A DNA stretch of 64,000 bases from Nocardioides houyundeii (lineage in GTDB: Bacteria > Actinomycetota > Actinomycetes > Propionibacteriales > Nocardioidaceae), in NCBI RefSeq assembly GCF_002865585.1, contig NZ_CP025581.1, forward strand, positions 2,542,001-2,606,000. The letters run 5' to 3'. Numbering within the stretch: position 1 is the first letter of the stretch; every line of letters begins with the position of its first letter. The position numbers and the translations under genes are program-made. Positions 6,352-62,900 of this stretch are shown here, one piece after another. The notes under the pieces were generated by a model. The model ran no database searches, had not been told where the DNA came from, and was given only the letters and a program-made list of their open reading frames with translations.

Positions 6352-7175
6352 TCAGTGCTCTTCGGCGACGGCGCCGGAGATGTACATCGACGTCAGCAGG
6401 ACGAAGACGTAGGCCTGGAGCACCTGGACCAGGAGCTCGAGGAGGCTGATGAGGCCGAACATCAGGAACGCGACGGGACCGGCGAGCTTGGTGAAGCCCT
6501 CACCGTGCAGCAGGAGGTACTCACCGCCGAGCGCGAACAGGATGAGCAGCAGGTGGCCGGCGAACATGTTGGCGAACAGACGCAGCGCCAGCGTGACCGG
6601 GCGGACCAGGATGTTGGAGAAGAACTCCAGCGGCACCAGGAGCAGGAGCACCGGTCCCTTGATGCCCGCGGGCACCGTCTGGTGCTTGAAGTAGCCGAAG
6701 AACCCGTGGCGCTTGATCCCGACGGCGTTGTAGACCACCCAGCTGAGCAGCGCCAGCGCGTAGGCGGTGCCGGCGCGGCCGAAGGTCGGGAACTGGATGA
6801 ACGGGATGGCCGCCATCACGTTGTTGACCAGGAGGAAGAAGAAGAGGGTCACCAGGTATGGGATGAACGGGGTGAAGTCCCGGCTACCGATGATGTCGCG
6901 ACCCAGGGAGTTGCGGACGAACCCGTAGCCGGCCTCGCCGACGTACTGGAGCTTGCCCGGCACCATGGCGCGCTTGCGGCTGGCGTAGTAGAGGAAGGCG
7001 AAGACCACTCCGGCCGCCACGACCAGCTGGATCATCGGCTTGGTGACGCCGAGGTACATCGTCTCGCCGAGGAACTCGAACGTCTTGTCCGGCCCGATCG
7101 GGGCAGGTTGAAGTCGGCCGGGCCCGGGGGGGTGAATCCCTCAGCCCGGATCGCGGTCATCCCGATCGCACTCAC
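6352..7175 (-). CDS. atpB: ATP synthase F0 a subunit, frameshifted in this sequence
   Basis: This is the membrane a subunit that forms the proton half-channels against the c-ring. The essential arginine lies in the segment LALRLFANMFAGH of the fourth helix, and the C-terminal helix VLQAYVFVLLTSMYISGA is typical. The reading frame is broken near base 7100. A GTG at 7175 with an AGGAGA box reads AEGFTPPGPADFNLP, then shifts. One extra G in the GGGG run at 7100-7103 (a C on the coding strand) joins it to IGPDKTFEFLGETMYLG and gives 274 residues, the usual length. An essential gene lost by one base in a G run is most likely a sequencing error. Without the repair only the part from the ATG at 7059 onward is readable. 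Confidence 0.9.
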
Positions 7176-7197
7176 GCTGTCTCCTGTGTCTGCCGCA

Positions 7198-7452
7198 CTA
7201 CTGATTCGAGTTCTTGTTCGTTCCGGAGGCCGGGGGCGTGCCGAACGCCCGCCAGGTCAGGTAGAGACCCAGGACTGCGCCGAACACGATGCCGATGCCC
7301 ACCAGGAACGTCGTTCCCAGCCAGCGGTCGAGTCCCCAGCCGCCCAGTCCGTAGACCAGGACACCGGTGATCACGTAGCTGAACGCACGCCAAGGGTCCT
7401 GCTGTCCGCGGGGTTCCTCGGCGTGGCTTGACCGTGAGTTCTTCAGAGCCAT
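7198..7452 (-). CDS. AtpZ-like small membrane protein of the atp operon
   Basis: This 84-residue protein has two predicted membrane helices (about residues 23-40 and 46-67) joined by a short GLDRWLGT turn, the layout of the AtpZ/AtpI family. Such proteins sit at the head of many atp operons and have been linked to c-ring assembly or divalent cation transport; which applies here cannot be told from sequence. It lies 22 bases before the repaired start of atpB and 30 bases after the AtpI-like gene, so co-transcription is likely. Confidence 0.75.
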   Translation of the reverse strand: MALKNSRSSHAEEPRGQQDPWRAFSYVITGVLVYGLGGWGLDRWLGTTFLVGIGIVFGAVLGLYLTWRAFGTPPASGTNKNSNQ

Positions 7453-7482
7453 CGCGAACCGGACAATAGCAGTCGTGAAAGG

Positions 7483-7986
7483 TCATCGCGCGCCCGCCTC
7501 CTCCCGCTCGGACGCAGCCGGGTCGGCCAGGTCGTAGAGCGGGATGCGCGCCTTGGTGCTGAGCCAGGTCTGCGCAGCGATCCAGACACCCGTGCCGACG
7601 ATGACGCCGGCTGCCAGCCAGCCCCGGGACACGACCGTGCCCAGGTCCCCGGAGCGGTCCAGCGCCGCGAAGACGGCGATCAGGACCGCGAGCTGGAGAC
7701 CGTAGGTCAGCAACGCGACGAGGAGGGAGGCCGAGGGCATCGCGGCCGCCACGACGTGGACCACGAAGGAGCCCAGCGCCAGGACGGTGATCACCAGACC
7801 GGCCCCGATCGCCGCGCCCAGGGCGCTCGGGCGCCCACCGGTCAGGGCCGCCAGAGCGACCACTGCGATGCCCGCTCCGACGGCGGCCAGCACGGCTCCC
7901 AGAAGCACACCGAGGCCCGGATCACCGGGCTGGCGTTGCGACGTACGGGGCATGTCTGGAGGCCGTCCTGTGGGGGTCTCGGGCAT
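7483..7986 (-). CDS. AtpI-like integral membrane protein
   Basis: This 167-residue protein has a proline-rich cytoplasmic start and four predicted membrane helices (about residues 26-48, 57-80, 86-108, 122-142). A protein of this size and topology precedes atpB in most actinobacteria and is annotated as ATP synthase protein I. It shows no catalytic motif. An in-frame ATG at codon 12 is a possible alternative start. Together with the AtpZ-like gene it gives two accessory membrane proteins ahead of atpB. Confidence 0.7.
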   Translation of the reverse strand: MPETPTGRPPDMPRTSQRQPGDPGLGVLLGAVLAAVGAGIAVVALAALTGGRPSALGAAIGAGLVITVLALGSFVVHVVAAAMPSASLLVALLTYGLQLAVLIAVFAALDRSGDLGTVVSRGWLAAGVIVGTGVWIAAQTWLSTKARIPLYDLADPAASEREEAGAR

Positions 7987-8060
7987 GGTCTCAGGTGGCG
8001 CCCGGGTGTCTCGGAGCGCTCGTGAAAACTATCACAAGCCTCCCGGGCCGCCGAATCGGC

Positions 8061-9206
8061 TCACGCCTCCTCGGTCTCCCCCGCATCGAGCAGCAGGGGG
8101 CTGTGCACCCGTGGCAGCACGAAGGTGACCACCAGGGTCAGCAGGCTGCCGAGCGCCAGGGCGGCCCAGACCATGGGGCCGGAGTAGAGACTCACCACCA
8201 CGGCCCCGAAGCCCACCAGCCCGGCCCAGGTCCACATGATGAAGACCGCGCGCCGCTGGGAGTGGCCGATCTCCAAGAGCCGGTGGTGCAGGTGCTGCTT
8301 GTCGGGAGCGAACGGCGACCGGCCCGCGCGGGTCCGCCGGACCACGGCCAGCACCAGGTCCGCCATCGGCACCAGCAGCAGGGAGACCGGGAGCAGCAGC
8401 GGGAGGAGCACCAGGATGCCGGCCCCCGAGCCGTCCCGGCCGAAGGAGGTCTGGGCACCGTCGAACTGGCCGGTCACGGTCAGCGCGCTGGCGGAGAGCA
8501 CGAGCCCGATCAGCATCGACCCGGAGTCGCCCATGAACAGGCGCGCGGGATGGAAGTTGTGTGGCAGGAAGCCCGCGCACGCCCCCGCGAGCGCGGCGCT
8601 GAGCAGCGCCCCCGTGGTCGCGAGGGTGACGTGGTTGAGGTTGGAGAGCTGATAGCAGAAGAGGAAGAGGGCCAGGGCGCCGATCCCCACGACTCCCGAG
8701 GCGAGGCCGTCCAGGCCGTCCACGAAGTTGACCGCGTTGACCGTCGCGACCACCACCACCACGGTCAGCAGCGTCCCCTGTGTGGGATCCAGTGCCAGCT
8801 GGACCCCCTCGCTGTTGGGGAAGAAGTAGAACTTGACGCCGTAGTAGGCCAGCAGCCCCGCGGCCAGCACCTGGCCGCCGAGCTTGGTGAGGGCATCGAT
8901 GTCGAAGATGTCGTCGAGCACTCCCACCGCGCAGATCAGTGCGCCCGCGGCCAGCACCACCCCGGCGTCCCGGAAGACCCAGGTGCCGCTGGTGGAGAGG
9001 AAGGGCAGCTCCCGAGCCACCAGGTAGGCCGCGACGAGCCCACCCAGCATCGCCAGTCCCCCGAGGTAGGGGATCGGCTTGGCGTGCACGTCGCGGTCCC
9101 GAACCGCCGCCACCGCCCCCGTGCGCAGCGCGATCTCCCGCGCGATGACCGTGAGGAGGTACGTCGTCGCGGCGGCGACCAGGAAGACCAGCAGGTACTC
9201 GCGCAT
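8061..9206 (-). CDS. wecA: Polyprenyl-phosphate GlcNAc-1-phosphate transferase (MraY/WecA family)
   Basis: This 381-residue multi-pass membrane enzyme transfers GlcNAc-1-phosphate from UDP-GlcNAc to a polyprenyl phosphate. In actinobacteria this starts the linker that joins arabinogalactan or teichoic-type polymers to peptidoglycan. The family motifs are all visible: DD at 98-99, NAVNFVDGLDG at 157-167, FMGDSG at 224-229 and the cytoplasmic HLHH motif near residue 295. Substrate specificity (GlcNAc rather than MurNAc-pentapeptide) is inferred from the HLHH motif and from synteny. The ATG overlaps the tsaC stop by one base. It lies upstream of the atp operon as in many actinobacteria. Confidence 0.92.
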   Translation of the reverse strand: MREYLLVFLVAAATTYLLTVIAREIALRTGAVAAVRDRDVHAKPIPYLGGLAMLGGLVAAYLVARELPFLSTSGTWVFRDAGVVLAAGALICAVGVLDDIFDIDALTKLGGQVLAAGLLAYYGVKFYFFPNSEGVQLALDPTQGTLLTVVVVVATVNAVNFVDGLDGLASGVVGIGALALFLFCYQLSNLNHVTLATTGALLSAALAGACAGFLPHNFHPARLFMGDSGSMLIGLVLSASALTVTGQFDGAQTSFGRDGSGAGILVLLPLLLPVSLLLVPMADLVLAVVRRTRAGRSPFAPDKQHLHHRLLEIGHSQRRAVFIMWTWAGLVGFGAVVVSLYSGPMVWAALALGSLLTLVVTFVLPRVHSPLLLDAGETEEA

Positions 9207-9904
9207 CAGCCCTGACCCGGGGTGTCGGTGGGGCCGGCACCGCCTGACTCGTCGGTGAGCTCGATCCCCAACGGGGTGAGCACCTCGGCCAGCTGGTCCA
9301 GGTCGATCGCGCCCAGCCGCAGCACGCGGCACCCCGGCCCGGTCACGTCCACGATGGTCGACGCCACGGCGCCGGCGCTGGGACCGCCGTCGACGATCAC
9401 CTCCACCCGGTCCCCCAGCATCCGCTCGGCCTCGTCGGCATCGGTGGCCGCGGGCTGGCCGGTGAGGTTGGCCGAGCTGACCGCGAGTGGGCCGGTGCGC
9501 TCCAGCACGGACAGGATGATCGGCTCGTCGGGCATCCGGACCGCCACGGTGCCATGGGTCTCCCCCAGGTCCCACTGCAGAGAGTCCTGCTGGTGGCAGA
9601 CCAGCGTCAGCGGGCCGGGCCAGAAGCGCTCGACCAGGGCGCGGGCGAATCCCGGGACCCGGGTCGCCAGGGCGTCCAGGGTGGTCGCGCTGCTGACCAG
9701 CACGGGAGGCGGCATGTCTCGGCCCCGGCCCTTGGCCTCCAGCAGCGCGCGGACCGCGACGGCGTCGAACGCGTCGGCCGCGATCCCGTAGACGGTGTCG
9801 GTGGGCAGCACGGCCAGCTCCCCGCGGCGCAGAGCCAGACTGGCTGCCTCGACGGCTTCCTCGCGTTCGTGCTCCGTGGCGGTCGCGTGTCGCATGAAGG
9901 TCAT
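9206..9904 (-). CDS. tsaC: L-threonylcarbamoyladenylate synthase (Sua5/YrdC/YciO family)
   Basis: This 232-residue protein makes threonylcarbamoyl-AMP from threonine, bicarbonate and ATP for the t6A modification of ANN-decoding tRNAs. The YrdC domain starts with GELAVLPTDTVYGIAADA (about residues 28-45) and contains AVSSANLTGQPAA, the conserved SAN loop. It lacks the full-length C-terminal Sua5 domain (about 340 residues) and so is the short TsaC-type form. It overlaps prmC by four bases (ATGA), continuing the block prfA-prmC-tsaC-wecA. Confidence 0.93.
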   Translation of the reverse strand: MTFMRHATATEHEREEAVEAASLALRRGELAVLPTDTVYGIAADAFDAVAVRALLEAKGRGRDMPPPVLVSSATTLDALATRVPGFARALVERFWPGPLTLVCHQQDSLQWDLGETHGTVAVRMPDEPIILSVLERTGPLAVSSANLTGQPAATDADEAERMLGDRVEVIVDGGPSAGAVASTIVDVTGPGCRVLRLGAIDLDQLAEVLTPLGIELTDESGGAGPTDTPGQG

Positions 9905-10758
9905 CGTGCCAGTCGCGCCGTCAGGAATCTCGCGCGCCCGGCCAGGTCAGCGTGGTCGCGGACCTCCGCCCAGCGCCCGGAGGTGGCGAACACCGCCGGC
10001 GCGCTCTCCCCCTGGGCGTCGGCGTGCTCGGCACCCACGACACCCCCGCGGCGCAGCAGGAGCGCTGCCCGCTCCTCCAGGACCCGGATCGCGTCGAGGC
10101 CGTCGTCGCCGGAGAACAGCGCCAGGTGCGGGTCGTGGTCACGGGCCTCCGCGGCCACCGACTCCCACGCCTCCAGAGGGATGTACGGCGGGTTGCACAC
10201 CACCACGTCCACCGTGCCGGCCAGCTCCGGGAAGGCCGTGGCCATGTCCCCCTGGCGCAGGTCCACCCCCGTCCCGGTGAGGTTGCGCAAGGCCCAGCCG
10301 TGGGCGGCCTCGTCCAGCTCGACGGCATGCACCTGCGCGGAGGGCGCCTCGTGGGCCACTGACGCGGCGATCGCCCCCGACCCGGTGCACAGGTCGACGA
10401 CCACGGCACCACGGCCGGTGGCGCGCTCGACCTCGAGCGCGGCCTCGACGGCCCACCCGGCCAGCAGCTCGGTCTCCGGCCGCGGCACGAACACGCCCGG
10501 CCCCACCTCTAGCTCGAGGTAGCGGAAGGCCGCGGAGCCCAGGATGTGCTGGAGCGGCTCGCGGGTGGCGCGCCGCGCCACCAGGGCGTCGTAGGCCTGC
10601 GCGTCACCCAGCGACAGCTCCTCGACCTGTACCAGGCCCCCCAGGGACACCCCGAGCACGTGCGCGAGCAGCTCGTCCGCATCCCGGTCCGGACTGGCCA
10701 CCCCCGCCTCGCGCAGCCGCTGGGCGGCGAGGCGACGAGCAGCCCGAGCGTGGCTCAC
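9901..10758 (-). CDS. prmC: Release factor glutamine N5-methyltransferase
   Basis: This 285-residue SAM-dependent enzyme methylates the glutamine of the GGQ motif of release factors. The SAM-binding loop DLCTGSG is at about 122-128 and the catalytic NPPY is at 189-192; both are intact. The N-terminal helical domain precedes them (residues 1-90). It starts with GTG, overlapping the prfA stop codon, so its expression is coupled to that of its substrate. The pairing prfA-prmC is widespread in bacteria. Confidence 0.95.
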
Positions 10759-11828
10759 TGCTCGAGGGACTGCAGACGGGCAGCCAGGTCCATGGCCACA
10801 CAGCTGTCGATGATCGGCCCGAGGTCACCGTCCAGCACCTGGTCGAGGTTGTGCGACTTGTAGCCGGTCCGGTGGTCGCTGATCCGGTTCTCGGGATAGT
10901 TGTAGGTGCGGATGCGCTCCGACCTGTCCACCGTCCGCACCTGTGAGCGCCGGGCCTGGCTGGCCTCGGCGTTCGCCTCTTCCTGGGCCGCGGCCAGCAG
11001 CCGGGCACGCAGGATCCGCATCGCCTGCTCCTTGTTCTGCAGCTGCGACTTCTCGTTCTGGCAGCTCACCACGATCCCCGACGGCAGGTGGGTGATCCGC
11101 ACCGCGGAGTCGGTCGTGTTCACGCTCTGGCCACCCGGCCCGGAGCTGCGGAAGACGTCGATGCGCAGGTCGTTGTCGTCGACGACCACGTCGACCTGCT
11201 CGGCCTCGGGGAGCACCAGCACGCCGGCGGCAGAGGTGTGCACCCGGCCTTGCGACTCGGTGACCGGGACTCGCTGCACCCGGTGCACGCCGGCCTCGAA
11301 CCGGAGCAGCCCGTAGGGCGCCTCCCCGGGCTGGGGCGTGCCCTTGGCCTTGACCGCCACCGTGACGGACTTGTAGCCCCCCAGGTCCGACTCGGTGGCG
11401 TCCAGCACCTCGGTGCTCCAGCCCTTGGTCTCGGCGAAGCGGGTGTACATCCGCAGCAGGTCGGCGGCGAACAGCGCCGACTCCTCGCCGCCCTCGCCTG
11501 ACTTGACCTCGAGGATGGCGTCCTTGGCCTCGGTCGGGTCCCGCGGCACCAGGAGGTGCCGCAGCCGCTCCTCGGCACCGGCGTGCCGCTTGACCAGGCT
11601 CTCGACCTCCGTCGCGAAGTCAGGGTCCTCGGCGGCCAGCTCGCGGGCGGCCTCGATGTCCTCGGCCAGCTCCTGCCACTCGCGCCAGGTGGCGATCACC
11701 GCGGAGAGCTCGGCGTAACGCTGGTTGAGCTGCTTGGCCAGCCGCTGGTCCGCGTGGGTCTCCGGCTCGGCCAGCCGCTGCTCGAGCATGGCGTGCTCGT
11801 CGACCATTCCCTCGACGGCCTCGAACAC
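10755..11828 (-). CDS. prfA: Peptide chain release factor 1
   Basis: This 357-residue protein terminates translation at UAA and UAG. The stop-codon-reading tripeptide PVT (PxT class, hence RF1 not RF2) lies at 188-190, and the peptidyl-tRNA hydrolysis motif GGQ at 232-234. The GTG start follows a strong GGAGGTGA box. The spacer upstream holds a 15-bp tandem duplication and the rpmE terminator, so prfA probably starts its own transcript, shared with prmC, tsaC and wecA. Confidence 0.96.
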
Positions 11829-11911
11829 GGGCGGTCACCTCCACAAACTGCTTGCACGGACCTGCAGGACACGCCACCTCCGCGGCGCGGGCGCCTGGGC
11901 GCAGCGCCTGG

Positions 11912-11941
11912 CGACAGGCGCACGAACGACAGGCGCACGGA
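11912..11941. repeat. 15-bp tandem duplication in the prfA-rpmE spacer
   Basis: Two adjacent copies of a 15-base unit (cgacaggcgcacgaa, then cgacaggcgcacgga) differ at one base. They lie between the rpmE terminator and the prfA start, where the prfA promoter or leader must be. I see no open reading frame here. Confidence 0.75.
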
Positions 11942-11952
11942 CGAAATGCCGA

Positions 11953-11987
11953 ACGCCGGTCACCCACATGGAGGTGGGGACCGGCGT
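11953..11987 (-). terminator. Terminator hairpin after rpmE
   Basis: A stem of about 14 pairs with a single bulged base (ACGCCGGTCACCCAC against GTGGGGACCGGCGT) and a 6-base loop lies 11 bases after the rpmE stop codon on the minus strand. It separates rpmE from prfA. Confidence 0.75.
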
Positions 11988-11998
11988 CCGGGTCGGAG

Positions 11999-12214
11999 CT
12001 ACTTCTGGGCAGCCTTGGCGTAGCGGGCCTCGAAGCGGGCCACGCGGCCACCGGTGTCGAGGATCTTCTGCTTGCCGGTGTAGAACGGGTGGCACTGCGA
12101 GCAGACGTCGGCGTGAAGCTTGCCGGACGGGGCAGTGCTGTGGGTGGTGAACGACGCGCCACAGGTGCAGGTCACCTGGGTCTCGACGTAGTCGGGGTGG
12201 ATGTCCTTCTTCAT
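11999..12214 (-). CDS. rpmE: 50S ribosomal protein bL31 (zinc-binding form)
   Basis: This 71-residue protein is bL31. Cysteines C16, C18, C38 and C41 make it the zinc-containing C+ type rather than the zinc-free paralogue made in zinc starvation. The motif [13 protein letters not shown] is family-typical. The gene is followed by a strong hairpin, so it is probably monocistronic. Its place next to prfA is the usual one in actinobacteria. Confidence 0.96.
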
Positions 12215-12308
12215 GTCAGTCCTTTCGGGGCCGCCGGGTCGCTCCGCCTGCTGCGGAGACGTGAACCGGAACCGACGCACAAGTGTGCCACCGTGCCCAA
12301 CAAGCGTG

Positions 12309-13823: not shown

Positions 13824-14879
13824 TGGGCACCGCCAGTCGCGCCAGCGCGAGGGCCTCGCGCACCACCGGGTGCGCGGCGCTGGCCTCCAGGGTCCGTCTC
13901 CCGGCGAGGCCGCAACGCTCCAGTGCCTGGGCCGCCGCGCGGGCGACCTCGATGTTCTCGTCCCTCAGGGCGGCGGCGAGGAACGCGACCGACCCGGGGC
14001 CGCCGATCTTGCCCAGCGCGACCGCAGACGTGCGTCGCACCTCCATGGAGGCGTGGTCCAGCAGCCCGGCCAGCGACATCACCGAGGTGGGTGCCCCCAG
14101 GTCGCCCAGGGCGTTGACGCAGGCGATGACCAGCTCCGTCGCGTCGGACTCGAGCGCGGCCTCCAGGGTCGGCACGGACCTGTGACCTCCGACGAGGCCC
14201 AGTACCTCGGCAGCCAGGAACTGGCGCCGCAGTGCGACGGGCGAGGCGTCCTGCGGGGCCGCCAGGGCGCGCGCGAGCACCGGCACGGCCGAGGGGCCGA
14301 TCCGGTCGACGGTGGCCAGGAAGTCGTGCCGCAGCCGCACCTCGTTGGCAGCGGCGTCGAGGACGGCCTGGACCACCTCGTCGCCCGAGTACGACGCCAG
14401 CGCGAGCGTGGCGGTCCGCCGTACGGCGAACTCGCGGTCGACCAGCCCCTCGAGCAGCCGGTCGAGGCTCTCGGGGCGGCGAGGATCCCCAGCTGGTGCA
14501 TGCCGCGGCAGCGGCGCACCACCGAACGGCTCCGGGCCAGGCGCCGGGACTCGTGGAGCGAGCCCCAGTCGCGCATCAGCGCCTGCAGGCGCTCGCGGGC
14601 CCCGCCGCGCAGCTTGGGCACCAGGGCGAACGCGTCGTCGTACACCGCGCGCCGCTCCTTGCGACCGGTGCGCAGCAGCGCCAGGGTGGCGAGCTCGACC
14701 TCCTCGTCGTCACCGGCGGTGAGGAGCAGGACCTGCTGCCAGATCGGCGCACGCACGTTGCGCCGCCTTCCCTCCGAGTGGTCCCGCAGGACCCTGATCA
14801 CCACCAGGGCGAGCACGACGACGAGACAGGCCAGACCACAAGCAACGGCCGCGTACCACGCGAACCGCTCTACGGTCAT
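13816..14879 (-). CDS. Membrane-anchored HEAT-repeat protein, frameshifted in this sequence
   Basis: An N-terminal membrane helix (about residues 7-28) is followed by a charged linker and then by HEAT/PBS-type alpha repeats, for example VPTLEAALESDATELVIACV and MSLAGLLDHASMEVRRTSAV. The frame breaks at the GGGG run at 14473-14476. One added G (C on the coding strand) joins MHQLGILAAP to ESLDRLLEGLVDREFAV and gives 354 residues. HEAT repeats act as protein-binding scaffolds; no enzyme motif is visible. The ATG overlaps the response regulator stop codon and its own stop overlaps the glycosyltransferase start, so it probably links the two physically. That role is inference. Confidence 0.78.
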
Positions 14880-15370: not shown

Positions 15371-17492
15371 CTAGGCGAGCTCGGCCACCGACGGCGTGCT
15401 GCGCTGCACCTGGGTGAGGAAGTCGATGTTGCTGTGCGAGCCGCGCAACCGCGCCAGCAGCAGCTCCAGGGCCTGCTCGATCTCCAGGTCGCCCAGCGCC
15501 TTGCGGAGCTTCCAGACGATCGCGACCTCCTCCGGGCTCAGCAGCAGCTCCTCGCGGCGGGTGCCCGAGGCGACCGCGTCGATCGCGGGAACAAGCGCCT
15601 GTCCGCGAGCTCGGACCGCAGTCGCAGCTCCATGTTCGCGGTGCCGGTGAAGTCCTCGAAGATCACCTCGTCCATCTTCGATCCGGTCTCCACCAGCGCG
15701 GTGGCCAGGATCGTCAGCGATCCGCCGTCCTCGACGTTGCGCGCGGCGCCGAAGAACTGCTTCGGCGGGTGCAGCGCGCTGGAGTCCACTCCCCCGGACA
15801 GGATCCGGCCGCTGGCCGGGGCGGCCAGGTTGTAGGCGCGGGCCAGCCGGGTGATGGAGTCGAGGAGGACCACCACGTCGTGGCCCAGCTCGACGAGCCG
15901 CTGCGCGCGCTCGATGGCCAGCTCGGCCAGCATCGTGTGGTCCGTGGCGGGCCTGTCGAACGTGGAGGCGATGACCTCTCCCTTGATGGTCCGCTGGAAG
16001 TCGGTCACCTCCTCGGGGCGCTCGTCGATCAGCACGACCATCAGGTGGCACTCGGGGTTGTTGGTGCTGATCGAGTTCGCGATGGACTGCAGCACCCTCG
16101 TCTTGCCGGCCTTGGGCGGGGACACGATGAGGCCCCGCTGCCCCTTGCCGATCGGCGCCGCGACGTCGATGATCCGACCGATCAGGTCCTGGCCACCGGT
16201 CTCCAGGCGCAGCCGCTCGCTCGGGTGCACCGGCGTGAACGAGGCGAACTCCGGCCGGTCCTTGGCCGCCTCGGGGTCGCCGCCGTTGACCGAGTCGATG
16301 CGCACCATGGGGTTGAACTTCTCGCGCCGCTCGCCCTCGCGGGGCTGGCGGACCTGGCCGACGATGGCGTCGCCGCGCCGCAGCCCGTACTTGCGCACCA
16401 TCGACAGCGAGACGTAGACGTCGTCGGCGCCGGGCAGGTAGCCGGTCGTCCGGACGAACGCGTAGTTGTCGAGAACGTCCAGGATGCCGGCGGCCGGCAC
16501 CAGGATGTCGTCCTCGAGGATCGAGGTGTCGGGCTCGTTGCGGCCGCCGGCGCGCGGCGTGGTCCGCTCGCGTCCCCGGCGACGGCGGTTCCGCCTGCTG
16601 CCGGCGTCGTCGTCCAGGTCGTCCTGGTCCCGGTTGCCCTGCTGGTCCCGGTTGCCCTGCTGGTCCCGGTTGCCCTGCTGGTCCCGGTTGCCCTGCTGGT
16701 CCCGGTTGCCCTGCTGGTCCCGGTTGCCCTGCTGGTCCCGGTTGCCCTGCTGGTCCCGGTTGCCCTGCTGGTCCCGGTTGCCCTGCTGGTCCCGGTTGCC
16801 CTGCTGATCGCGGTTGCCCTGCTGATCGCGGTTGCCCTGCTGATCGCGGTTGCCCTGCTGGCGGCGCTGCCGCTTCGGGGTGTTGGCCTCGTTCTCGCGC
16901 TGGGCGTCCTGCTCGTTGTCCCGGGCGCGCTCCTCGCGAAGCTCCGTCGACGCCTCGCGCCGCGCCTCCCGGGTCTGGCTGGTCACGGTGTGCCCACCCT
17001 GGGCCTCGATCGCGGGCTCGCTCGAGCCAGCCGCAGCAGCCTCGCCCCGACTACGACGGCGGGTGGCGCGGGCCGGCGCGTCCGGCGTCCTGGACTCATC
17101 GGCGGGCCCGCTCGGGGTGCCGGCGGCGTCCTGGCTGCCGGACTCGCCTGCCCCGGTCCCGGACTGGACGGGCGCGCCGCCGGCCCTCTTGCCAGCCGAT
17201 CGCGCCGCGACCCGCTCGGTGGACCGGGCAACGGCAGGCTGGCCCTCGGGGCCGTGCTGGGGGCCGCGTCGGCGGCTGCGGCTCGGGGCGGGGACTGCAC
17301 GCCGCGGATCGCCTCGACGAGCTGCGCCTTCTTCATCGAGCCGGCACCGGGGATGGCCAGCGCGCCCGCCATCGCCTTGAGATCCGCGAGCAGCATGGTG
17401 TTGAGGCTGGTGGCGCGCTTGCGCTGCGTCGGCGCAGTCGTGTCGGGCGCCTGCGTCGCCTCGGAACCGGTCGAGCCGGGGGTTTCGGTCAC
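15371..17492 (-). CDS. rho: Transcription termination factor Rho, frameshifted twice in this sequence
   Basis: Rho is the hexameric RNA helicase that ends transcription. The GTG start gives an N-terminal Rho-N fold ([18 protein letters not shown]), then a long disordered insertion containing 13 copies of QQGNRD, then the RNA-binding cold-shock fold ([15 protein letters not shown]) and the ATPase core with KAGKTRVLQ and [11 protein letters not shown]. Two single-base losses break the frame. One is in the 17259-17293 region, most simply the GGGGG run at 17259-17263. The other is at the GGG at 15587-15589, where TTC CCC GCG is expected ([13 protein letters not shown]). Repair of both gives 707 residues ending STPSVAELA. 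An essential gene with two such errors points to base calling. Confidence 0.9.
16626..16859 (-). repeat. 13 x 18-bp tandem repeat inside rho (QQGNRD)
   Basis: Thirteen uninterrupted 18-base units encode QQGNRD. On the plus strand the first ten read ggtcccggttgccctgct with no differences seen. The last three carry gatcgcg in place of ggtcccg, a synonymous change. Such near-identity implies recent expansion by slippage or unequal exchange, and the copy number may vary between strains or be collapsed in assembly. Confidence 0.95.
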
Positions 17493-17736
17493 GTGAAGTC
17501 CTTGCCACGTCCAGTGCGGGGCGGTGAGAACCGCCGGGCATCCGTTGATGAGTCTCCCCGACCTCGTCGCTCGCGGATGCGAGGCGCCGGTGCGGACACG
17601 TCGGAAGGGGGATGAGGCACACCGGGGGGTGCTCTTCGCAGTCACCGGTGGTCGCGCGCGGGTGGCGCGCCGGTCACGCTACCACTCCCGGCGCCCCCGG
17701 ATCGGGAGCGGGCGGCGGGCGGCGGTGCGGCCTCCC

Positions 17737-26102: not shown

Positions 26103-29100
26103 GTGCCGCAGTCCCCCAGCTCTGATCAGTCCTCCCCCACTCCCGGCGCCGACTTCGGCGCCAACGAGTGGCTGGTGGAGGAGATGTTCGAGCAGTACCA
26201 GAAGGACCCTTCGACAGTCGGCTCCGCGTGGTCCGACTTCTTCGCCGATCGTGCGGCGGCGCCGAACGGCGACCAGCGGTCCGCCAGCATCGCGAGCAAG
26301 CCCGCGGCGTCGAGCAGCTCGGGGTCGGCCGCCAAGCCCGCCGTCGCCGCCCCGAAGCCGGCTCCTCAGGCTGCGGCCCCCAAGGCGGGTGCCGCCGCGT
26401 CCACCGGCCCCGTCCCGGTCGCCAAGCCGCGCCCCTCCGCGCCTGCCGCGGAGCCCGCGAAGGGCACGGACAAGCCCGTCGCCAAGGACCCCAAGCCCGC
26501 GCCGCCCGCCGAGGCGAGCGCCGAGACGACCTTCACCGTGCTGCGCGGCGCCCCGGCCCGCACGGCGCAGAACATGGACGCCTCCCTGACCGTGCCCACC
26601 GCGACCTCCGTGCGCTCCCTGCCGGTGAAGCTGCTGTGGGACAACCGGACCGTCATCAACAACCACCTCGCCCGCGCGCGCGGCGGCAAGGTCTCCTTCA
26701 CCCACCTGATCGGCTACGCGCTGGTGCAGGCCGTGAAGTCGATGCCGGAGATGAACGTCGGCTTCGACGTCGTGGACGGCAAGCCCAACCTGATCACGCC
26801 GGCCCACATCAACCTCGGCCTGGCGATCGACGTACCCAAGAAGGACGGCAGCCGCCAGCTGCTCGTGCCCGCCATCAAGGCGGCCGAGACCATGGACTTC
26901 GCCGGCTTCTGGACCGCCTACGAGGAGATCGTCTCCAAGGCGCGTGACAACAAGCTGACCGTGGCCGACTTCCAGGGCACCAGCATCTCCCTGACCAACC
27001 CGGGCGGCATCGGCACCAGCCACTCGGTGCCCCGCCTGATGAAGGGCCAGGGCGCCATCATCGGCGTCGGCGCGATGGAGTACCCGCCGGAGTGGCAGGG
27101 CGCCTCCGCCGAGACGATCGCCCGCAACGCCATCAGCAAGGTGATGACCCTCACCTCCACCTACGACCACCGGGTCATCCAGGGCGCCCAGTCGGGTGAG
27201 TTCCTCAAGCGGATGCACTCGCTGCTGCTGGGTGCCGACGGCTTCTACGACGAGATCTTCCGCTCGCTGCGGATCCCGTACGAGCCCATTCGCTGGGGCG
27301 CCGACATCGCCACCAACCACGACGAGGACATCAGCAAGCAGGCGCGCATCCTGGAGCTGATCCACGCCTACCGGGTGCGGGGCCACATGATGGCCGACAC
27401 CGACCCCCTGGAGTACCGCCAGCGCAGTCACCCCGACCTCGAGATCGAGACGCACGGGCTGACCCTGTGGGACCTGGACCGCGAGTTCGCCACCGGCTCC
27501 TTCGGTGGCGAGGGCCGCCGGTTCATGAAGCTGCGCGACATCCTGGGGATCCTGCGCGACTCCTACTGCCGCACCACCGGCATCGAGTACATGCACATCA
27601 TGGACCCCGAGCAGCGCCAGTGGATCCAGGAGCGGGTGGAGCGTCCCCACACCAAGACCCCCGCGAGGAGCAGCTGCGAATCCTGCTCAAGCTCAACCAG
27701 GCCGAGGCCTTCGAGACGTTCCTGCAGACCAAGTTCGTGGGCCAGAAGCGCTTCTCGCTCGAGGGCGGGGAGACCACGGTCCCGCTGATCGACGAGCTCT
27801 GCGAGGCCGCCGCCGAGGCGGACCTGGACGAGGTCACCATCGGGATGGCCCACCGTGGCCGCCTCAACGTGCTGGCCAACATCGTCGGCAAGAGCTACTC
27901 CCAGATCTTCCGCGAGTTCGAGGGCAACATCGACCCGCGGACCGTCCAGGGCTCGGGCGACGTCAAGTACCACCTCGGCGCCGAGGGCGAGTTCGTCTCC
28001 GGCAAGGGCGACACCATCAAGGTCTCCGTGGCGGCCAACCCCTCCCACCTCGAGGCAGTCGACCCGGTGCTCGAGGGCATCGCCCGGGCCAAGCAGGACA
28101 TGCTCGACCGCGGCTCGGACTTCCCCGTGCTTCCGCTCCTGGTGCACGGCGACGCGGCATTCGCCGGGCAGGGAGTGGTGGCGGAGACGCTCAACCTGTC
28201 CCAGCTGCGCGGCTACCGCACCGGCGGGACCATCCACGTCGTGGTGAACAACCAGGTCGGCTTCACCACCTCCCCCGGGGCCTCGCGCTCCTCGCTCTAC
28301 TGCACCGACGTGGCCCGGATGGTCCAGGCCCCGATCTTCCACGTCAACGGTGACGACCCGGAGGCGTGCATCCACGTCGCCCGCCTGGCCTTCGAGTACC
28401 GCCAGGCGTTCAAGAAGGACGTCGTGATCGACCTGGTGTGCTACCGCCGTCGCGGACACAACGAGGGCGACGACCCGTCGTACACCCAGCCGCTGATGTA
28501 CGACCTGATCGAGCAGAAGCGCTCGGTGCGCAAGCTCTACACCGAGTCGCTGATCGGTCGTGGCGACATCACGATCGAGGAGGCCGAGCAGGTGCTGCGC
28601 GACTACCAGCAGCAGCTGGAGCGCGTCTTCACCGAGGTGCGCGAGGCCTCCTCCACGCCGTCCTCGTGGACCACCGTGCCCGACTACCCCGAGAAGTCGG
28701 CCGGCGCCACCACCACCGCGGTCTCGCCCGAGGTGCTCAAGCGGATCTCGGACGCCTACATCACACCGCCGGAGGGCTTCACGGTCCACCAGAAGGTGAT
28801 GCCGCAGCTGCAGCGCCGCGCCGCGGCCATCACCGACGGTCCCATCGACTGGGGCACGGGCGAGATCCTGGCCTTCGGCTCCCTGCTGATGGACGGCCGA
28901 CCGGTGCGCCTGGCGGGCCAGGACTCCCGCCGCGGCACGTTCGTGCAGCGCTTCGCCACCATCATCGACCGCAAGAACGCCGACGAGTGGACCCCGCTGA
29001 CCAACCTGAGCGAGGACCAGGCGAAGTTCTACGTCTACGACTCCCTGCTCTCCGAGTACGCCGCCCTCGGCTTCGAGTACGGCTACTCCGTGGCCCGTCC

Positions 29101-29893
29101 GGACGCCCTGGTGCTGTGGGAGGCCCAGTTCGGGGACTTCGTGAACGGCGCCCAGACCGTCATCGACGAGTTCATCTCCGCGGGCGAGCCCAAGTGGCGC
29201 CAGCAGTCCGGCGTGGTGCTGCTGCTGCCGCACGGCTACGAGGGTCAGGGACCCGACCACTCCTCCGCCCGCATCGAGCGCTTCCTGACGATGTGCGCCG
29301 AGGACGCGATGGTCGTCGCCCAGCCCTCGACGCCGGCTTCGCACTTCCACCTGCTGCGCAGCCACTCGCTCGGCGAGGAGCACCGACCGCTGGTGGTGTT
29401 CACGCCGAAGTCGATGCTCAAGCGCAAGGAGGCGGCCTCCCAGCCCTCCGACTTCACCCAGGGCACCTTCCGCCCGTTCATCGGGGACGACGCGGCCGAC
29501 CCGGCCGCGGTCGAGACCCTGCTGCTGTGCTCGGGACGCATCACCTGGGACCTCATGGTGGAGCGCAAGAAGCGCGAGGACGGCTCCAGCTTCGCGATCG
29601 GCCGGGTCGAGCAGCTCTACCCCCGTCCCGTGGACGACATCAAGGCGGAGATCGCCAAGTACCCGAACCTCAAGGCGATCCGCTGGGTCCAGGACGAGCC
29701 GGGCAACATGGGCCCGTGGCCGCACTACGCGCTCAACGTGTGGTCCGAGCTCGACCTCCCCGTCGAGCAGGTCACCCGTCCGCAGTCCGCGTCGCCGTCG
29801 GTGGGCACCCTGAAGCGCCACGTGGAGGAGCAGAAGAACCTCCTCGACAGGGCGTTCGCCCCCGTCGAGCCGACGCCCGGGACCGACTACTAG
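26103..29893 (+). CDS. kgd: Multifunctional 2-oxoglutarate decarboxylase/dehydrogenase (Kgd), frameshifted in this sequence
   Basis: This large TCA-cycle enzyme of actinobacteria joins an E2-type acyltransferase domain to the thiamine-dependent E1o. In order it has a short N-terminal helix ([20 protein letters not shown]), an Ala/Pro/Lys linker, the acyltransferase with [11 protein letters not shown] (His near residue 355), then the E1 domain with [13 protein letters not shown] near residue 580. The frame is broken at the CCCCC run 27658-27662. A sixth C gives [20 protein letters not shown] and a 1263-residue protein, close to the mycobacterial enzyme. GTG at 26103 is preferred over an in-frame start at 26013 because a GGAAGAGG box precedes it and a TAGCCT -10-like box lies at 26042. 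FHA-protein (GarA/OdhI-like) control is known for the family. Confidence 0.93.
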
Positions 29894-49712: not shown

Positions 49713-50080
49713 ATGCAGAAGCCCGAAGTCGACCCGCACCTGGGCGACGCGCCCACCGACCTCGAGGTCACCGACCTGGTCGAGGGCGACGGCACCGAGG
49801 CCAAGACCGGCAGCACCGTCTCGGTGCACTACGTCGGCGTGGCCCACTCCACCGGCGAGGAGTTCGACGCCTCCTACAACCGGGGCGCCCCGCTGCAGTT
49901 CCGGCTCGGCATCGGCCAGGTCATCGCCGGCTGGGACCAGGGCGTGTCGGGCATGAAGGTCGGCGGTCGTCGCCGCCTGGTCATTCCCCGCACCTGGCCT
50001 ACGGCGACCGCGGGGCCCCCGGCGCGATCGCGCCCGGCGAGACCCTGATCTTCGTGGTGGACCTGATCGACGTCAACTGA
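49713..50080 (+). CDS. FKBP-type peptidyl-prolyl isomerase, frameshifted in this sequence
   Basis: This is a single-domain cytoplasmic FKBP. It starts MQKPEVDPHLGDAPTDLEV, then shows VSVHYVG, the active-site strand FRLGIGQVIAGWDQGVSGMKVGG, and after a frame break AYGDRGAPGAIAPGETLIFV. The break lies at the CCCC run 49986-49989. A fifth C restores VIPPHLAYGDRG and gives 122 residues ending DLIDVN, the normal length. The intact downstream coding in another frame argues for a sequencing error rather than decay. A TAGGAT box at 49646-49651 may be its -10 element. Confidence 0.9.
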
Positions 50081-53786: not shown

Positions 53787-53790
53787 TTAC

Positions 53791-56425: not shown

Positions 56426-56542
56426 CTTGGCTCCTTGACGACCGTTCACCCAGAGATTTTCGGGCACGATATCAAGCAGGTGTTCGATTACTGAGACGCA
56501 CGCGCCCGGCGTGCGAGGGCGGGCTCGAGCCAGGGCCGCGAA

Positions 56543-58222
56543 CTAGGAGGAGCCGAGCGACTCCGCGACCTCGCGGCGCAGCACCTTGCCCATGGGGTTG
56601 GTCGCCAGCTCCTCCACGAACACCACGCGCCGGGGCACCTTGTAGCCGGTCAGGGCCTGCCGTGCGTGTGCGCGCAGGTCCTCCGGCTGCAGGTCGACGC
56701 CGTGCTCCAGCACCACCGCGGCGACCACCTGCTCGGTCCCCTCGTCGTCGCGGACCCCCACCACCGCTACGTCGAGGACCCCGTCGTGCGTCCGGATCGC
56801 GGCCTCGACCTCGGACGGGTAGACGTTGAAGCCACCGGTGATGATGACCTCCTTGATGCGGTCCACGATCGTCAGGAAGCCGTCGGGCGACATGGTGACC
56901 ACGTCCCCGGTGCGGAACCAGCCGTCGTGGAAGGCTGCCTCGGTCTCGTCCGGCAGCCCGCGGTAGCCGGAGAACACCTGGGGTCCCCTGACCAGCAGCT
57001 CGCCCCGCTCCCCCGGCGCCACGACGCGGTCCAGGTCCTCGGGGTCGGCCAGCCTGATCTCCACGTCCGGGAAGGGGACGCCGATCGACCCGGGCCGCCG
57101 CGAGGAGGTCATCGGGTTGCCCACGATGACGGGCGAGGTCTCGGTGAGTCCGTAGCCCTCGACCAGCAGCCCTCCGGTCGCCGTCTCCCACCGCTCGACG
57201 AGCGCGGACGGCAGCGGCATCGCGCCGGAGAGGCCGTAACGGATCCCCTTGATCGAGGTCCCCCGGCGCTCCGCCTCGTCCACGATCCGCTGGTAGAGCG
57301 GCGGGACCGCCGGCACGAAGCTGGGCACGCCGCGCTTGATCGCGTCCATGATCAGATCGATGTCGGGCTTGGGCAGCAGCACCAGCTTGGCCGCCAGGGA
57401 GATGCCGAGCAGCACACTCACCGTGACGCCGTAGGCGTGGAACAGCGGGAGCGGCACCAGAAAGGTCTCCGTCCCCTCCGCCAGCCCCGGCACCCAGGCC
57501 TGGCCCTGCAGCACGTTCGCGACCAGGTTGCGGTGGCGCAGCGGCACCCCCTTCGGCCGGCCGGTGGTGCCCGAGGTGTACAGCAGCAGGGCGACGTCGT
57601 CGGCGCTCGGCCGCGGGTGCGCCGGGTCCACGGGCGGCGAGGACAGCAGCTCGTGCCACGGCAGCGCGCCGGGCGCCGGGCTCGTCAGCTGCTCGCGGGC
57701 GGCCCTCGCCTTGGCGATGGGCAGCCGCAGGGCGAGCCGCTTCAGCGGCGGCAGCTCGCGGGTCAGGTCGACCGCGACGACGTGCTCCAGCGCGGAGCCG
57801 TCCCGCAGCTCCTCCACCACGGGCACGACCTTGTCCCAGACCACCGCGACCCGAGCACCGTGGTCGGCGAAGGCCGGCCGGAGCTCGCCGGCGGTGTAGA
57901 GCGGGTTGTGCTCCACGACGGTGGCCCCCAGGCGCAGCACGGCGAAGAACGCGACGACGTTCTGCGGGCAGTTCGGCATCACCAGCGCCACGTTGTCGCC
58001 GGGGCCGACGCCGAGCCTGCTGAGTCCGCCGGCAACCCGGCGTACCGCCTCGTCAAGCTCGCGGTAGGAGGTGGTGGCCCCCAGGAAGTCGAGGGCGGGT
58101 CGGTCGGCGTGCCGCTCGACGGAGCGCTCGAGCAGGTCGAGCACGGTGGTGTCGCCGTAGTCGAGGTGGAGCGGGACCCCTGGGCCGTACGAGTCAGCCC
58201 ACGCGGGCTCCTGAGCCGACAT
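56543..58222 (-). CDS. fadD: Long-chain-fatty-acid-CoA ligase family protein
   Basis: This 559-residue adenylate-forming enzyme activates a carboxylic acid, probably a fatty acid, with ATP and CoA. The AMP-binding P-loop is [12 protein letters not shown] (215-226), followed by the [12 protein letters not shown] signature and the hinge region GWFRTGDVV. The C-terminal lysine lies in [11 protein letters not shown]. Chain-length preference is not predictable. It stands alone on the minus strand, about 118 bases from the STAS gene downstream. Confidence 0.92.
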
Positions 58223-58286
58223 CGGTGGCCTGTCCTCCTTCTGCGCTGCGTGGCCGGGCAGCCGACGCTGCCACCACGCTACAGAG

Positions 58287-58625
58287 TCAGGTCAGGTTCT
58301 GAGCGAGCCGGGCCACCCCCCAGTAGAGGGGGAACCCCAGGACCTCCGCCAGCTCGTCGTCCCCCGCCTCGGCGGCCCCGACGGCACTGCGGTAGGCCGC
58401 CGCCAGGGCGACGGCGTCGGCGTGGCCCCGGAGTCCGAAGGGATCCACCAGGCGCTGCAGCGTCACCCACAGCTCATCGGGCAGCGACAGCTCCACTGCC
58501 CGCCGCTCGCGCTCGGAGAGCTGCTCCCAGGCGTGGACCACCGCCCGGACCGCCGAGACGTGGCGCGGCCGGTTCGTGCCGGGCGGGGCCGGACGTCGTA
58601 CGGCGAGCTGCTGGGGGGGATGCAC
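58287..58625 (-). CDS. Hypothetical protein, about 112 residues
   Basis: I do not recognise this protein. It is predicted to be mostly helical and soluble, with HAWEQLSERERRAVELSLPD in the middle and a C-terminal YWGVARLAQNLT helix. The codon bias matches its neighbours, and the GTG start at 58625 lies seven bases after a TAGCGT box, consistent with a leaderless message. A GTG three codons upstream is inside that spacer and less likely. It lies 64 bases before fadD on the same strand. Confidence 0.55.
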   Translation of the reverse strand: MHPPQQLAVRRPAPPGTNRPRHVSAVRAVVHAWEQLSERERRAVELSLPDELWVTLQRLVDPFGLRGHADAVALAAAYRSAVGAAEAGDDELAEVLGFPLYWGVARLAQNLT

Positions 58626-58632
58626 GCGCCAC

Positions 58633-58638
58633 ACGCTA
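58633..58638 (-). promoter_or_regulatory. -10 box of a leaderless promoter for the 112-residue protein
   Basis: TAGCGT on the minus strand, 7 bases before the GTG at 58625. Confidence 0.45.
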
Positions 58639-58728
58639 GGCCGACCTCACGCCCGGCACGGGCGGAACCGGGCAACTCCTGGCCGTCGGTCTGGACCAGC
58701 GAGGCGGGAGCGAATCAGAGCAGGTGCC

Positions 58729-59553
58729 TCAGAGGAACCGGCCGCAGTACGGCCAGGGCGAGCGGCCCCGCGACTTGTGCAGGATCTTGGCGCGCGTGGT
58801 CTGCTCCGCCGCAGACGCCTGGGTCGGCGTGCCGCGGCCCCCGACGCTGCGCCAGGTGCCGATGTCGAACTGGTAGAGGCCGTAGTAGCCGGCGGCATTC
58901 ACGGCCCGCGGGTTCCCGCCGGACTCGCACTTGGCCAGCGCGGTCCAGTTGAGGCCGTCGGAGGCCGCTACCGGGGCGGCCTTGCGGCCCACCAGGACGC
59001 GGCGGGGCTTGGCGGCCCGCACCGTGGTGCGCGAGACGACCCGCCTCTTGACCACGTCCCCGTTGTGCCGGGTGCGGGCGATCTTGACCCGTCGTACGCC
59101 GGGGCGGCCGGTCGAGACGACCTTGCGGCGACCCGGCTTCAGCGAGGTGACCGACACGGTCACCGTGCCCGGGGCGATCCTGACCCGGCGGATCACCGAG
59201 TCCTTCTTGACCCGGATGACCTTGACGGTGTCGCCCTGGCGCAGGCGACGCCGGTCGCCCTTGACGTGCCGGCCCTTGCGGACGACGTCGATCAGGTCGT
59301 CGCGGTCCACCTTCACGCCGTGGCTGGACAGCATCGTGGCAGGCCAGACCTGCTTCGGGGTGGCCACCTTCTCGGCGGCGCGGTCGGCGACCTTGAGCCG
59401 GACCGGGACCTCCACCGCGGCGTCGGCCGCGGTCGGGGTGGCAGCGATGGCGCTGCCCGGGACCAGGCTGACGGCGACGGCCGCAGCGGTGGCTACCACC
59501 GTGGTCCGGGTGAGCTGGCGCAGGGCGCCGTGATGACGAATGGGTGCACGCAC
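58729..59553 (-). CDS. Resuscitation-promoting factor-like secreted protein (DUF348/G5/transglycosylase)
   Basis: This 274-residue secreted protein has a signal peptide (cleavage about residue 37, AIA-A), a DUF348-like beta domain (about 47-120), a G5-like domain (about 120-200) and a C-terminal lysozyme-like Rpf domain with the catalytic glutamate in AKCESGGN and the fold motif GYYGLYQFDIGTWRSVGG. Two cysteines (in KCES and PYCGRF) can form the Rpf disulfide. Such enzymes cut peptidoglycan and help dormant cells grow again. The GTG at 59553 follows a GAGG box and places the signal correctly. A 363-base spacer precedes it. Confidence 0.9.
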   Translation of the reverse strand: MRAPIRHHGALRQLTRTTVVATAAAVAVSLVPGSAIAATPTAADAAVEVPVRLKVADRAAEKVATPKQVWPATMLSSHGVKVDRDDLIDVVRKGRHVKGDRRRLRQGDTVKVIRVKKDSVIRRVRIAPGTVTVSVTSLKPGRRKVVSTGRPGVRRVKIARTRHNGDVVKRRVVSRTTVRAAKPRRVLVGRKAAPVAASDGLNWTALAKCESGGNPRAVNAAGYYGLYQFDIGTWRSVGGRGTPTQASAAEQTTRAKILHKSRGRSPWPYCGRFL

Positions 59554-59916
59554 GTGCAATACCTCGTTTGCTTCTCTTCGCCCACGTACGGGCGATCGGA
59601 CGCAACGCCGCAGGAATGGGGCGCTGAGGCCACGGCGACCCAGTCCTCGGTCAGGCATTCAGGTGGCCCGCGCGGCTACGACGAACGCTCCCTCCGGACC
59701 CCGGAGTGGACCCGGGCTGGGGCTACGAACGCGCCGTGCCGCGGCCACCGCGGCTCTTCGAGTTGAACGCCCCGGGCGGCCAGAAGTCGAATCGGGGTCC
59801 CGGCCCCAGGCGTGGGGGGTGAGGGGGTTCACATCCTGCGGCCCTATCACGACCGCCCGGCGCCCGGGGCCCCGGGTCGGCTCCGGGGACGACGGGGCGC
59901 CGCACTCCCCGGCTGG
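59554..59916 (-). other. 363-base gene-free region: leader of the Rpf-like gene and end of jetC transcript
   Basis: No supported gene lies here. Read on the minus strand, the part nearest the Rpf-like gene can form a stem-loop at 59628-59668 (GGCCAC/GTGGCC with an inner GACC/GGTC stem) and a 5-bp hairpin at 59579-59594 (CGCCC/GGGCG) a few bases before the ribosome binding site. Two similar 12-15 base stretches (GCGTTCGTAGCC and GCGTTCGTCGTAGCC) lie farther upstream. The region next to jetC is very G/C-rich with a CCCGGGGCCCCGGG palindrome. I could not match the known c-di-AMP riboswitch core. Confidence 0.4.
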
Positions 59917-62900
59917 TCAACCGGCGTTCTCGACCTCGGTGATGGCGTGGATCGCGGAGAGATGGGTCGAGGTGTGCTTGGTGATCACCAGCAGCTGGTC
60001 CATGTGCGGCTCCAGGCCGGTCACCTTGTCCAGGGGCACCCCGATCACCAGCTGGAAGCCCAGCCCGCGCCAGGCGCGGACGGCTCGCCCGGCGAACTCC
60101 GAGTCCGCCTTGACGAAGCCCTCGTCGAGGAAGACCGGTGCGAAGCGGGGCCGCGAACGCATCTCGTCGCCGAGCCGGAACCTCAGGGCGGAGCCGATGA
60201 TGAAGGCGACCAGCTCCTGGCTCTCACCACCGCTCTTCTCCCCCAGCGTCCGGTAGGTGGCGCGCAGCTCCCCGGTCAGGCGGTCGTAGCGCTCGGCACT
60301 CACCTCCACGTGCCGGCGTACGTCGAGCAGCCGGTCGCGGTCGGCGCCGCCCTCGGGGCCCGATCCCGGCTCGGGTCGACGCAGCTGGTCCATGAACCGG
60401 CTCAGGGAGCGGAAGCGGGCTGTCATCTGCTCCTCGTCCAGCTCCCCGGACGGAGGGCGGGAGAGGTCCCGCAGGTCGCGCAGGAAGGCCTGCACGTGCG
60501 CCGGGGCGAGACGACGGAGCCGGATCCGCAGCCGGTCCTTCTCGGCACCGAACTCGAGCTTGCGCAGGATGGCGTTGATCGGTTCCAGCCGGTCCTCGAT
60601 CTCCTCCACCGACGACGACATGGCGCCCGCCAGCGGGACCAGGTCCTGGCCGCTCCACTCGGTGAGGCGACGGCGCCACTCCCCGCGCCGCTGCGCCAGC
60701 CCGGTCTCGGCGATGCCGGTCAGGATGCGGGCATAGTCGGAGTAGGACTCCGGGCCGGTACCGAGGTTGGGGTCCTCCCACTGCAGCTGGTAGGCCCGGA
60801 AGATGGCGGTGAGCTCCCGCTCGGCGTGCTCCGCCTCGACCTGGGCGCTGGCGACCGCACCGGTGAGCCGGGCCTGGAGTCGCGCGGAGTTCTCGTGGAA
60901 GCGCGCCAGGTCGCTCGGGTCGTCGGGGGCGCAGGCCGCCGCGAACTCCTCGTCCAGCCGGGTCGCCTGCTCCGGCGTGAGGACGGGGTCCCCACGCCGC
61001 ACGACGCGTTCCAGCTCGTCGCTGACCTGGTCCTCGGACTCCACCAGGTCGCCGTGCTCCCGCTCCAGGACACGGGTCCGCTCCTCCAGCCGGAAGCGGT
61101 GAGTCCGTGCCTCCTCCAGGGCGGACTCCACCTCGGCCATCTGCTGCTCGGCGGTGCTCAGCTGGTCGTCGGCGCCCAGGATCTCGGCTCGACGTCGCTC
61201 CAGGTCGGCGATCCGGGCGTCGCAGGAGAGCACGTCGAGGTCGTGGTACCCGTGCCCGCCCACCGCGGCGTACGCCGTCCGGTGCAGGTCCAGCACCCGC
61301 GCCCGGGACTCCACCTCCCGCAGCTCCTCGTCCAGCGCGGCCAGGGCGGCCTCGAGGGAGGCCAGCTCGCGGTCCACCTCGGCCAGCGCCTCGGCGTTGC
61401 TGAAGCCGATGATGTTGCGCCGCTCCCCCCGGCCGTGCGAGCCACGTCGCCCCGAACGGGTCTGACCCGCCAGGGTGACCCGGAGACCGTCGCCGACCAG
61501 CCCGTCCGCGGACTCCACGCACAGCGCGTTGCGCGACGGGTCGGCCACGTGGCGCTGCACCCAGCCCAGGAACGGGGAGTCCCGGAAGACCAGCTTGCCC
61601 GCGACGTGAGCGCCGTCGGTGGGTGCCGCCGGCTCCAGGTGCTGCTCGGCGCCGACGAAGGTCAGCCGGCCGCGCAGGTGCACGTCGTCGATGGCGGCGG
61701 AGAACTCCTCCAGCCGGTCCAGCGGCACCAGCAGCTGGCGCGCGGCCCCGCCCAGCACCGTCTCGACGGCCAGCCGCCACCGGGACTCCGCGGGTGCCAG
61801 GTCGACCAGCTCGGCGACGAAGGGCAGCTCCTCGGTGCTGAGGCCGCTGGCCCGGGCCACCTCCGCGCGCAGTGCGTGCAGCTGCTCCGGGACCCGCCCG
61901 AGCGTCCCTCCATGGAGGCCCGCTCCGCCTGCAGCTCGGTACGGCGAGCCATCAGCGGGTAGCGCGAGGCCATGACCTCGTCACGCCGGTCCCGCAACGA
62001 CGCGGCAGCGGCGGGGTGCTCGGCGAGCCAGCGCTCGGCGCGGGCGATCAGCTGACCGAACCCGGCACGTGACTCCAGTGCGTCGGCGACCGGCTCCGGG
62101 CCGGTCGCCGGCCCCGGCACCAGCAGGGGGGCCAGCCGCTCCAGCAGCGCACCGCGCCGGGCCACCCGCTCGGCCCGACGCGCCTGCTCCCGCTCGATCT
62201 CGCCGGCCAGCCGCTCCAGCGTGGCGCCGCCCGCGGCCCGGTGCCCCTGCTTGGCGGCCTCCAGCTCCTCCTCCAGCGCGCCCACCGTGCGCACGCTGGC
62301 CCGCAGCTCGTCGGCAGCCTGCGCCCGACCGATCCGGTTGGCCTGGACGGCTGCCTCGAGCAGCGCCGAGTGGGTGCGCAGCAGCCACAGCCGCACCGGG
62401 CTGTCCCCCGGGGCCGTGACGCCGAACGCGTCGAGCTCCTCGGCCCGGGCGCGCGCGGCCGACCGGCGCTGGTGCAGCTCGGGGATCGGGGCGAGCAGCT
62501 CCTGCTTCTGCTCCTCGGTGCGCATCGCGCGGTACGCCGACTCCAGGTCGTCGAAGTGCTCGACGGCGCGGTCCGCGGCCGCGAAGGTCGCGGGCCGCTC
62601 CAGCACCATGTCCTTGTACAGCTCGTCCACGCTGCGCACCTGGTTGCCGGCCTGGATCCGGGCCAGGAGTCGGAGCGCCTTCGCGCCGTCACCGTTAGCG
62701 CCGATGCCCAGCCGGGCGTGGAGCAGCGCGGCGAACTCGGCGTAGGTCCGGTGCACCCGAACGCCCGGGTAGAGCTTCTTCAGCGTGTTGGCGTGGAAGC
62801 GGTCGGGCACGGCGGCCTCGAGGGTGCCCAGGTCGACGGGGGCGTCGATCGTCGCCAGCTGCATCGCCACGTCCGCGGACCGGGTCGCCCGGCGCGGGAC

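Follow-up and report, generated by a model that had tools for sequence, protein, structure and literature searches.

One-base shortfalls in short G and C runs interrupt genes across an actinobacterial assembly and very probably reflect homopolymer under-calling

Introduction

Pseudogenes formed by true slippage carry one-base indels in homopolymer runs, and their occurrence depends on run length. In long-read assemblies, gene-fragmenting indels in homopolymers make up most of the leftover errors, according to the Kastor (PMC12007338) and Homopolish (PMC8011154) reports. The former gives an example in which deletions mostly follow four to five identical bases (PMC12007338), and the latter describes leftover nanopore errors as mainly homopolymer indels, which shift reading frames (PMC8011154).

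Here we describe a window of 64 kb, the whole stretch of DNA that was analysed, from a genome assembled as a single contig of 3,840,802 bases. Its kgd protein has its best named relatives in Nocardioides and other Nocardioidaceae, which are environmental actinobacteria. The GC content of the sequence is approximately 71%, which makes codon phase very informative and G/C runs frequent.

The breaks in this DNA share with described long-read errors that one-base homopolymer indels disrupt genes, and the run lengths fit those of the Kastor example (PMC12007338). They differ from the Kastor example, where deletions were most often associated with A/T runs (PMC12007338), in that 20 of 20 sites lie near a G/C run of at least 3, the search having covered G/C runs alone. 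With true slippage pseudogenes they have in common the one-base indels in runs and the dependence on run length; they differ in that usually needed genes without an intact second copy are affected, together with one of three rRNA operons, and in that near-identical intact proteins exist for both genes checked (kgd and atpB).

Methods

Two independent tests were applied: tblastn of relatives' intact proteins against the window, and a codon-usage HMM that works without homology. This codon-phase HMM was trained on the codon usage of this genome and run across the 64 kb window. The genome sample consisted of the window plus 400 kb from 20 places (464 kb), and the control set of 100 kb from each of seven relatives (G001-G004, G024, G029 and G110; 700 kb in total). 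A frame switch was counted only if its two coding segments adjoined with no gap. Gapped switches (6 of 22 flagged rows in the genome's own sample; 7 of 7 in G001-G004) were excluded because they probably mark gene boundaries, and for G024, G029 and G110 gapless switches alone were reported. The null for run proximity was the presence of a G/C run within 10 nt of random coding positions. The three rRNA operons were aligned over a shared block of approximately 5.5 kb.

Results

Relatives' proteins changed frame in the window, with an offset of -1 modulo 3, at six sites (tblastn): in atpB, a HEAT-repeat protein gene, the 3' part of rho, kgd, an FKBP gene and jetC. The codon-phase HMM revealed sharp switches inside genes at 14472, 15586, 27659, 49982 and 61905, and no further sharp switch in the 64 kb window. 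The atpB break and a break in the rho linker were invisible to it, which puts its sensitivity in the window at 5/7, two known sites having been missed. The first-pass annotation had proposed seven one-base losses in six genes; relatives' proteins back six of these sites, and the seventh, a second break in rho, is real but only roughly placed.

An eighth break was not found in the window. One candidate near 51.7 kb proved to be an over-extended ORF of a single relative at a divergent gene pair. Two-frame matches near 2.99, 9.9, 18.65, 39.6 and 47.1 kb were taken for ordinary gene boundaries, with the relative's ORF over-extended or fused, since at these places one window gene gives way to the next or neighbouring genes are on opposite strands. 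The first tblastn round, performed with unfiltered ORFs, gave extra two-frame matches, some of them antisense.

The gene for F0 subunit a, atpB (6355..7175, minus strand; PF00119), changes frame at approximately 7101 by tblastn with the G003 and G110 proteins. An intact AtpB of 274 aa (P0242; on a 137,734-base contig) is identical at 232 of 235 residues across the part downstream of the break, and although the source field of P0242 is blank, as it also is for window proteins, its contig differs in length from this genome and no single window frame encodes it. The longest ORF downstream of the break begins at an internal ATG and covers 235 of the 274 residues; such errors, then, need not look like pseudogenes. 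On its own, this downstream ORF (window 6355-7175) could pass as a complete short gene.

Profile and relatives together locate a frame change at approximately 27659 in kgd (26103..29890, plus strand), the gene for the multifunctional 2-oxoglutarate decarboxylase/dehydrogenase. NF008907 is divided across the break (5-505 and 503-1240 of 1241), and tblastn with the G002 and G004 proteins gives the change at 27647-27662. An intact kgd protein of 1263 aa (P0002; on a 149,510-base contig) is 99% identical on either side of the break. The kgd DNA span differs from that of the window by 1 modulo 3 in 59 of 60 relatives, these being the first 60 rows after the genome itself and not every listed row. 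The lone exception, G111 (matched to window 27000-28600), may have a break of its own or may reflect an alignment end effect.

Two frame changes fall in rho (15374..17645, minus strand), one at approximately 15587 and one in the linker. The 3' change lies at 15586-15595 with the proteins of G001, G004, G024 and G029, and at 15604-15619 with that of G110; the Rho profile is divided between two frames (45-353 and 350-414 of 415). The frame of the Rho_N domain differs from that of the Rho core, which shows the second break to be real. Its position (best estimate 17224-17296) is rough and uncertain because the linker is poorly conserved and the N-terminal homology match reaches approximately 17100. 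Codon likelihood is best at 17260 and remains within 3 log units over 17224-17296, an interval that holds several runs, including GGGGG at 17259. No near-identical intact rho protein was present among the 120 matches listed, the best of which stood at 87%.

The HEAT-repeat protein gene (13834..14879, minus strand; HEAT_2) changes frame at approximately 14472, at a sharp phase switch; a 354-aa G110 protein matches in two frames, and the G003 and G110 proteins place the change at 14445-14475. The FKBP-type peptidyl-prolyl isomerase gene (49713..50077, plus strand) does so at approximately 49986, with FKBP_C 2-67 of 94 before the break. Intact proteins of G001, G002, G003 and G029 switch frame at 49988, and G110 gives two overlapping matches at the break, one per frame. 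The gene jetC (59923..63440, minus strand), for the MukB-like subunit of a Wadjet-type system, is interrupted at approximately 61900 (sharp phase switch at 61905): PDLC00517 is divided into 10-470 and 482-1116 of 1119, and the G024 and G110 proteins switch frame at 61896. Wadjet-type jetB and jetC occupy the right end of the window (59923-63997), and no defence-family match was obtained for the two genes tested to the left of this pair (window 58732-59658 and 56546-58222).

DNA alignments at five sites showed a one-base gap in the window, in or beside the run, for atpB, the 3' part of rho, kgd and FKBP; the alignment of the HEAT gene was poor, and its gap falls some bases off the run. In these short alignments relatives often show other synonymous bases at the break sites and no longer run. 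Run lengths there are therefore no direct test, and a run-length comparison with a relative, put forward earlier as a check, proved uninformative where codons are differently composed. Gap-by-gap DNA alignment to three closer relatives (approximately 72-90% identity) was also discarded, with one-base gaps about equal both ways (97/115, 91/91 and 119/121).

We identified 21 sharp switches in the 464 kb, five in the window and 16 in the 400 kb sampled from the rest of the genome; the latter confirm the suspicion that more cases lie hidden elsewhere. The same procedure gave no sharp switch in the 700 kb of the seven relatives. The sign was that of one base fewer, which by codon phase itself is indistinguishable from two bases more, in 20 of the 21 (two-sided binomial p = 2e-5), and the atpB and rho linker breaks, which stand outside the 21, have the same sign. 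The single switch of opposite sign is located in L116, in a linker rich in repeats. The one pair of phase switches that run in opposite directions, L116:14973-15153, may reflect either a genuine difference in the repeats or an artefact of decoding.

A G/C run of at least 3 was found within 10 nt of 20/21 switches, one of at least 4 near 16/21 and one of at least 5 near 6/21, compared with 56.5%, 16.0% and 3.7% of random coding positions, respectively. A run of at least 3 is a weak criterion, since more than half of random coding positions have one; adjacency to a run of 3, which had been offered as evidence, says little at 71% GC, and the signal is carried by runs of at least 4. As for the attribution of all breaks to G/C runs, the association with runs of at least 4 (16/21 vs 0.160) stands, whereas the rho linker break is not assignable to a single run.

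The broken share increased with inferred true run length, at 0.1% (3/3131), 1.1% (9/827), 5.6% (7/124) and 25% (1/4) for lengths 4, 5, 6 and 7, where the longest full run near each of 20 sites was assumed to be the affected one. As a rough estimate, 20 errors in 464 kb extrapolate to approximately 166 in the genome, or approximately 230 at a sensitivity of 5/7; the assembly probably contains approximately 170-230 such errors. Scarcity of long G/C runs was rejected as an independent sign of under-calling, long runs being scarce in relatives too. Relative to expectation, length-6 runs stand at 0.03-0.32 in four relatives and 0.44 in this genome, length-5 runs are depleted in relatives about equally or more than here, and runs of at least 7 are nearly absent (3 vs 82.6 expected here; 4 vs 56.4 expected in the four relatives together).

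For the 16 sampled switches, both pieces were scanned at 13 and the left piece alone at one; L122:236 and the right piece at L116:15152 were left out. At 12 of the 13 fully scanned sites, the two pieces correspond either to successive stretches of a single family or to two domains of a single protein. The sampled broken genes encode a solute-binding protein, glucosyl-3-phosphoglycerate synthase, a Gfo/Idh-like dehydrogenase, an MFS transporter, an LLM oxidoreductase, an AMP-binding enzyme, a thiolase, a pyridine-nucleotide oxidoreductase, flagellin, FtsH, Cas3 and a phosphatidylethanolamine-binding-family protein. The C-terminal match of flagellin is below the Pfam cut-off, and the two Cas3 domains can also be separate genes. 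At the thirteenth site, a short-chain dehydrogenase, the short second piece had no family match. For the L116 dehydrogenase, an intact 364-aa G024 protein splits at residues 181/182; the search for a G024 counterpart of sampled stretch L123 yielded scattered weak matches only. Among these frame breaks outside the window are those in ftsH (L128:14412-16456), the cas3-like gene (L131:16494-19441) and flagellin (L127:18994-19877).

We then consider gene copies. Searching the genome itself, with intact proteins and the FtsH peptidase family as queries, failed to reveal an intact second copy for any of the genes atpB, kgd, rho and ftsH; it returned the broken loci, plus weak kgd and rho matches at 27-32% identity. 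This agrees with the earlier judgement that true loss of atpB, rho and kgd is implausible.

Alignment of the three rRNA operons gave 13 differing columns. Three G runs, of 5, 5 and 6 in L161 and L162, are each one base shorter in L163 (own genome 995728-1002728); the first lies within the 16S gene, the second soon after its end and the third deeper in the operon. Among the remaining columns are four substitutions and an insertion of five bases in L163, as well as one extra G in L161, which adjoins a substitution; this extra G may be real.

Discussion

From these sequence comparisons, we consider it almost certain that all seven frame changes stem from errors of base calling or consensus, with the assembly one base short in short G or C runs; the genes themselves are probably intact. 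Homopolymer under-calling fits the direction of the changes, their association with runs, their dependence on run length and their spread across the genome, and likewise the single-copy genes, the intact near-identical homologues and the discordant rRNA copies. The pattern comprises indels in runs, a deletion bias, a rate rising with run length and a spread that includes non-coding RNA. Homopolymer under-calling was the cause named in the first-pass annotation, and the run-length trend, the clean relatives, the intact homologues and the rRNA copies support it. The missing bases would have been lost in sequencing and not in the cell, the source of error probably being a long-read assembly without enough polishing.

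Genuine indels, in a strain that is an indel hypermutator or in genes that are decaying, are very improbable. Polymerase slippage favours longer runs too, and it is a caveat to under-calling that genuine slippage is equally run-length dependent; moreover, a cell could survive the loss of jetC, the HEAT gene and the cas3-like gene, and a genome of 3.84 Mb is rather small for this genus. Yet atpB, rho, kgd and ftsH are among the broken genes, with no intact second copy found, and it is implausible that a cell could lack functional F0 subunit a, Rho, 2-oxoglutarate decarboxylase and FtsH. For kgd and atpB, near-identical proteins are intact, and decay would be expected to bring stop codons and larger deletions, whereas the examined pieces are otherwise open and well conserved. 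There is likewise only a very slim chance of a living indel-hypermutating actinobacterium with many one-base G/C-run losses in its population, its essential genes rescued by slippage during expression.

It is more doubtful still that the genes are read by way of programmed ribosomal frameshifting, or of slippage during transcription, at the runs. The breaks do lie in or beside homopolymer runs, which are possibly slippery, but relatives keep a single frame through each of the six placed sites, so the site is not conserved; the kgd span differs by 1 modulo 3 in nearly all counted relatives (59/60), and unrelated genes are affected throughout the sample. Furthermore, rRNA is untranslated and likewise shortened, so frameshifting cannot account for those runs. 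That the frame changes arose by chance or from the method, through overlapping genes or spurious high-GC ORFs, is just as hard to credit: high-GC antisense ORFs and over-extended starts did yield false candidates, but consecutive parts of one family flank the break, at the six placed sites intact relatives have one ORF running through the junction, and the relatives showed no sharp switch in 700 kb under identical treatment.

Homopolymer under-calling is a known kind of artefact and nothing new biologically; what results is a concrete warning about one genome. Automated annotation of this genome will miss or split genes, and a 718-aa kgd fragment (P0003), on a contig whose length equals that of this genome exactly, is already present in the protein database. 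Despite the breaks, the single-contig genome has a listed completeness of 100%, so that figures of this kind give no hint of the problem. Some errors can pass for believable short genes, as the atpB example illustrates. Where this genome is cited for a lost gene, a pseudogene or variation among rRNA copies, the claim should be checked first.
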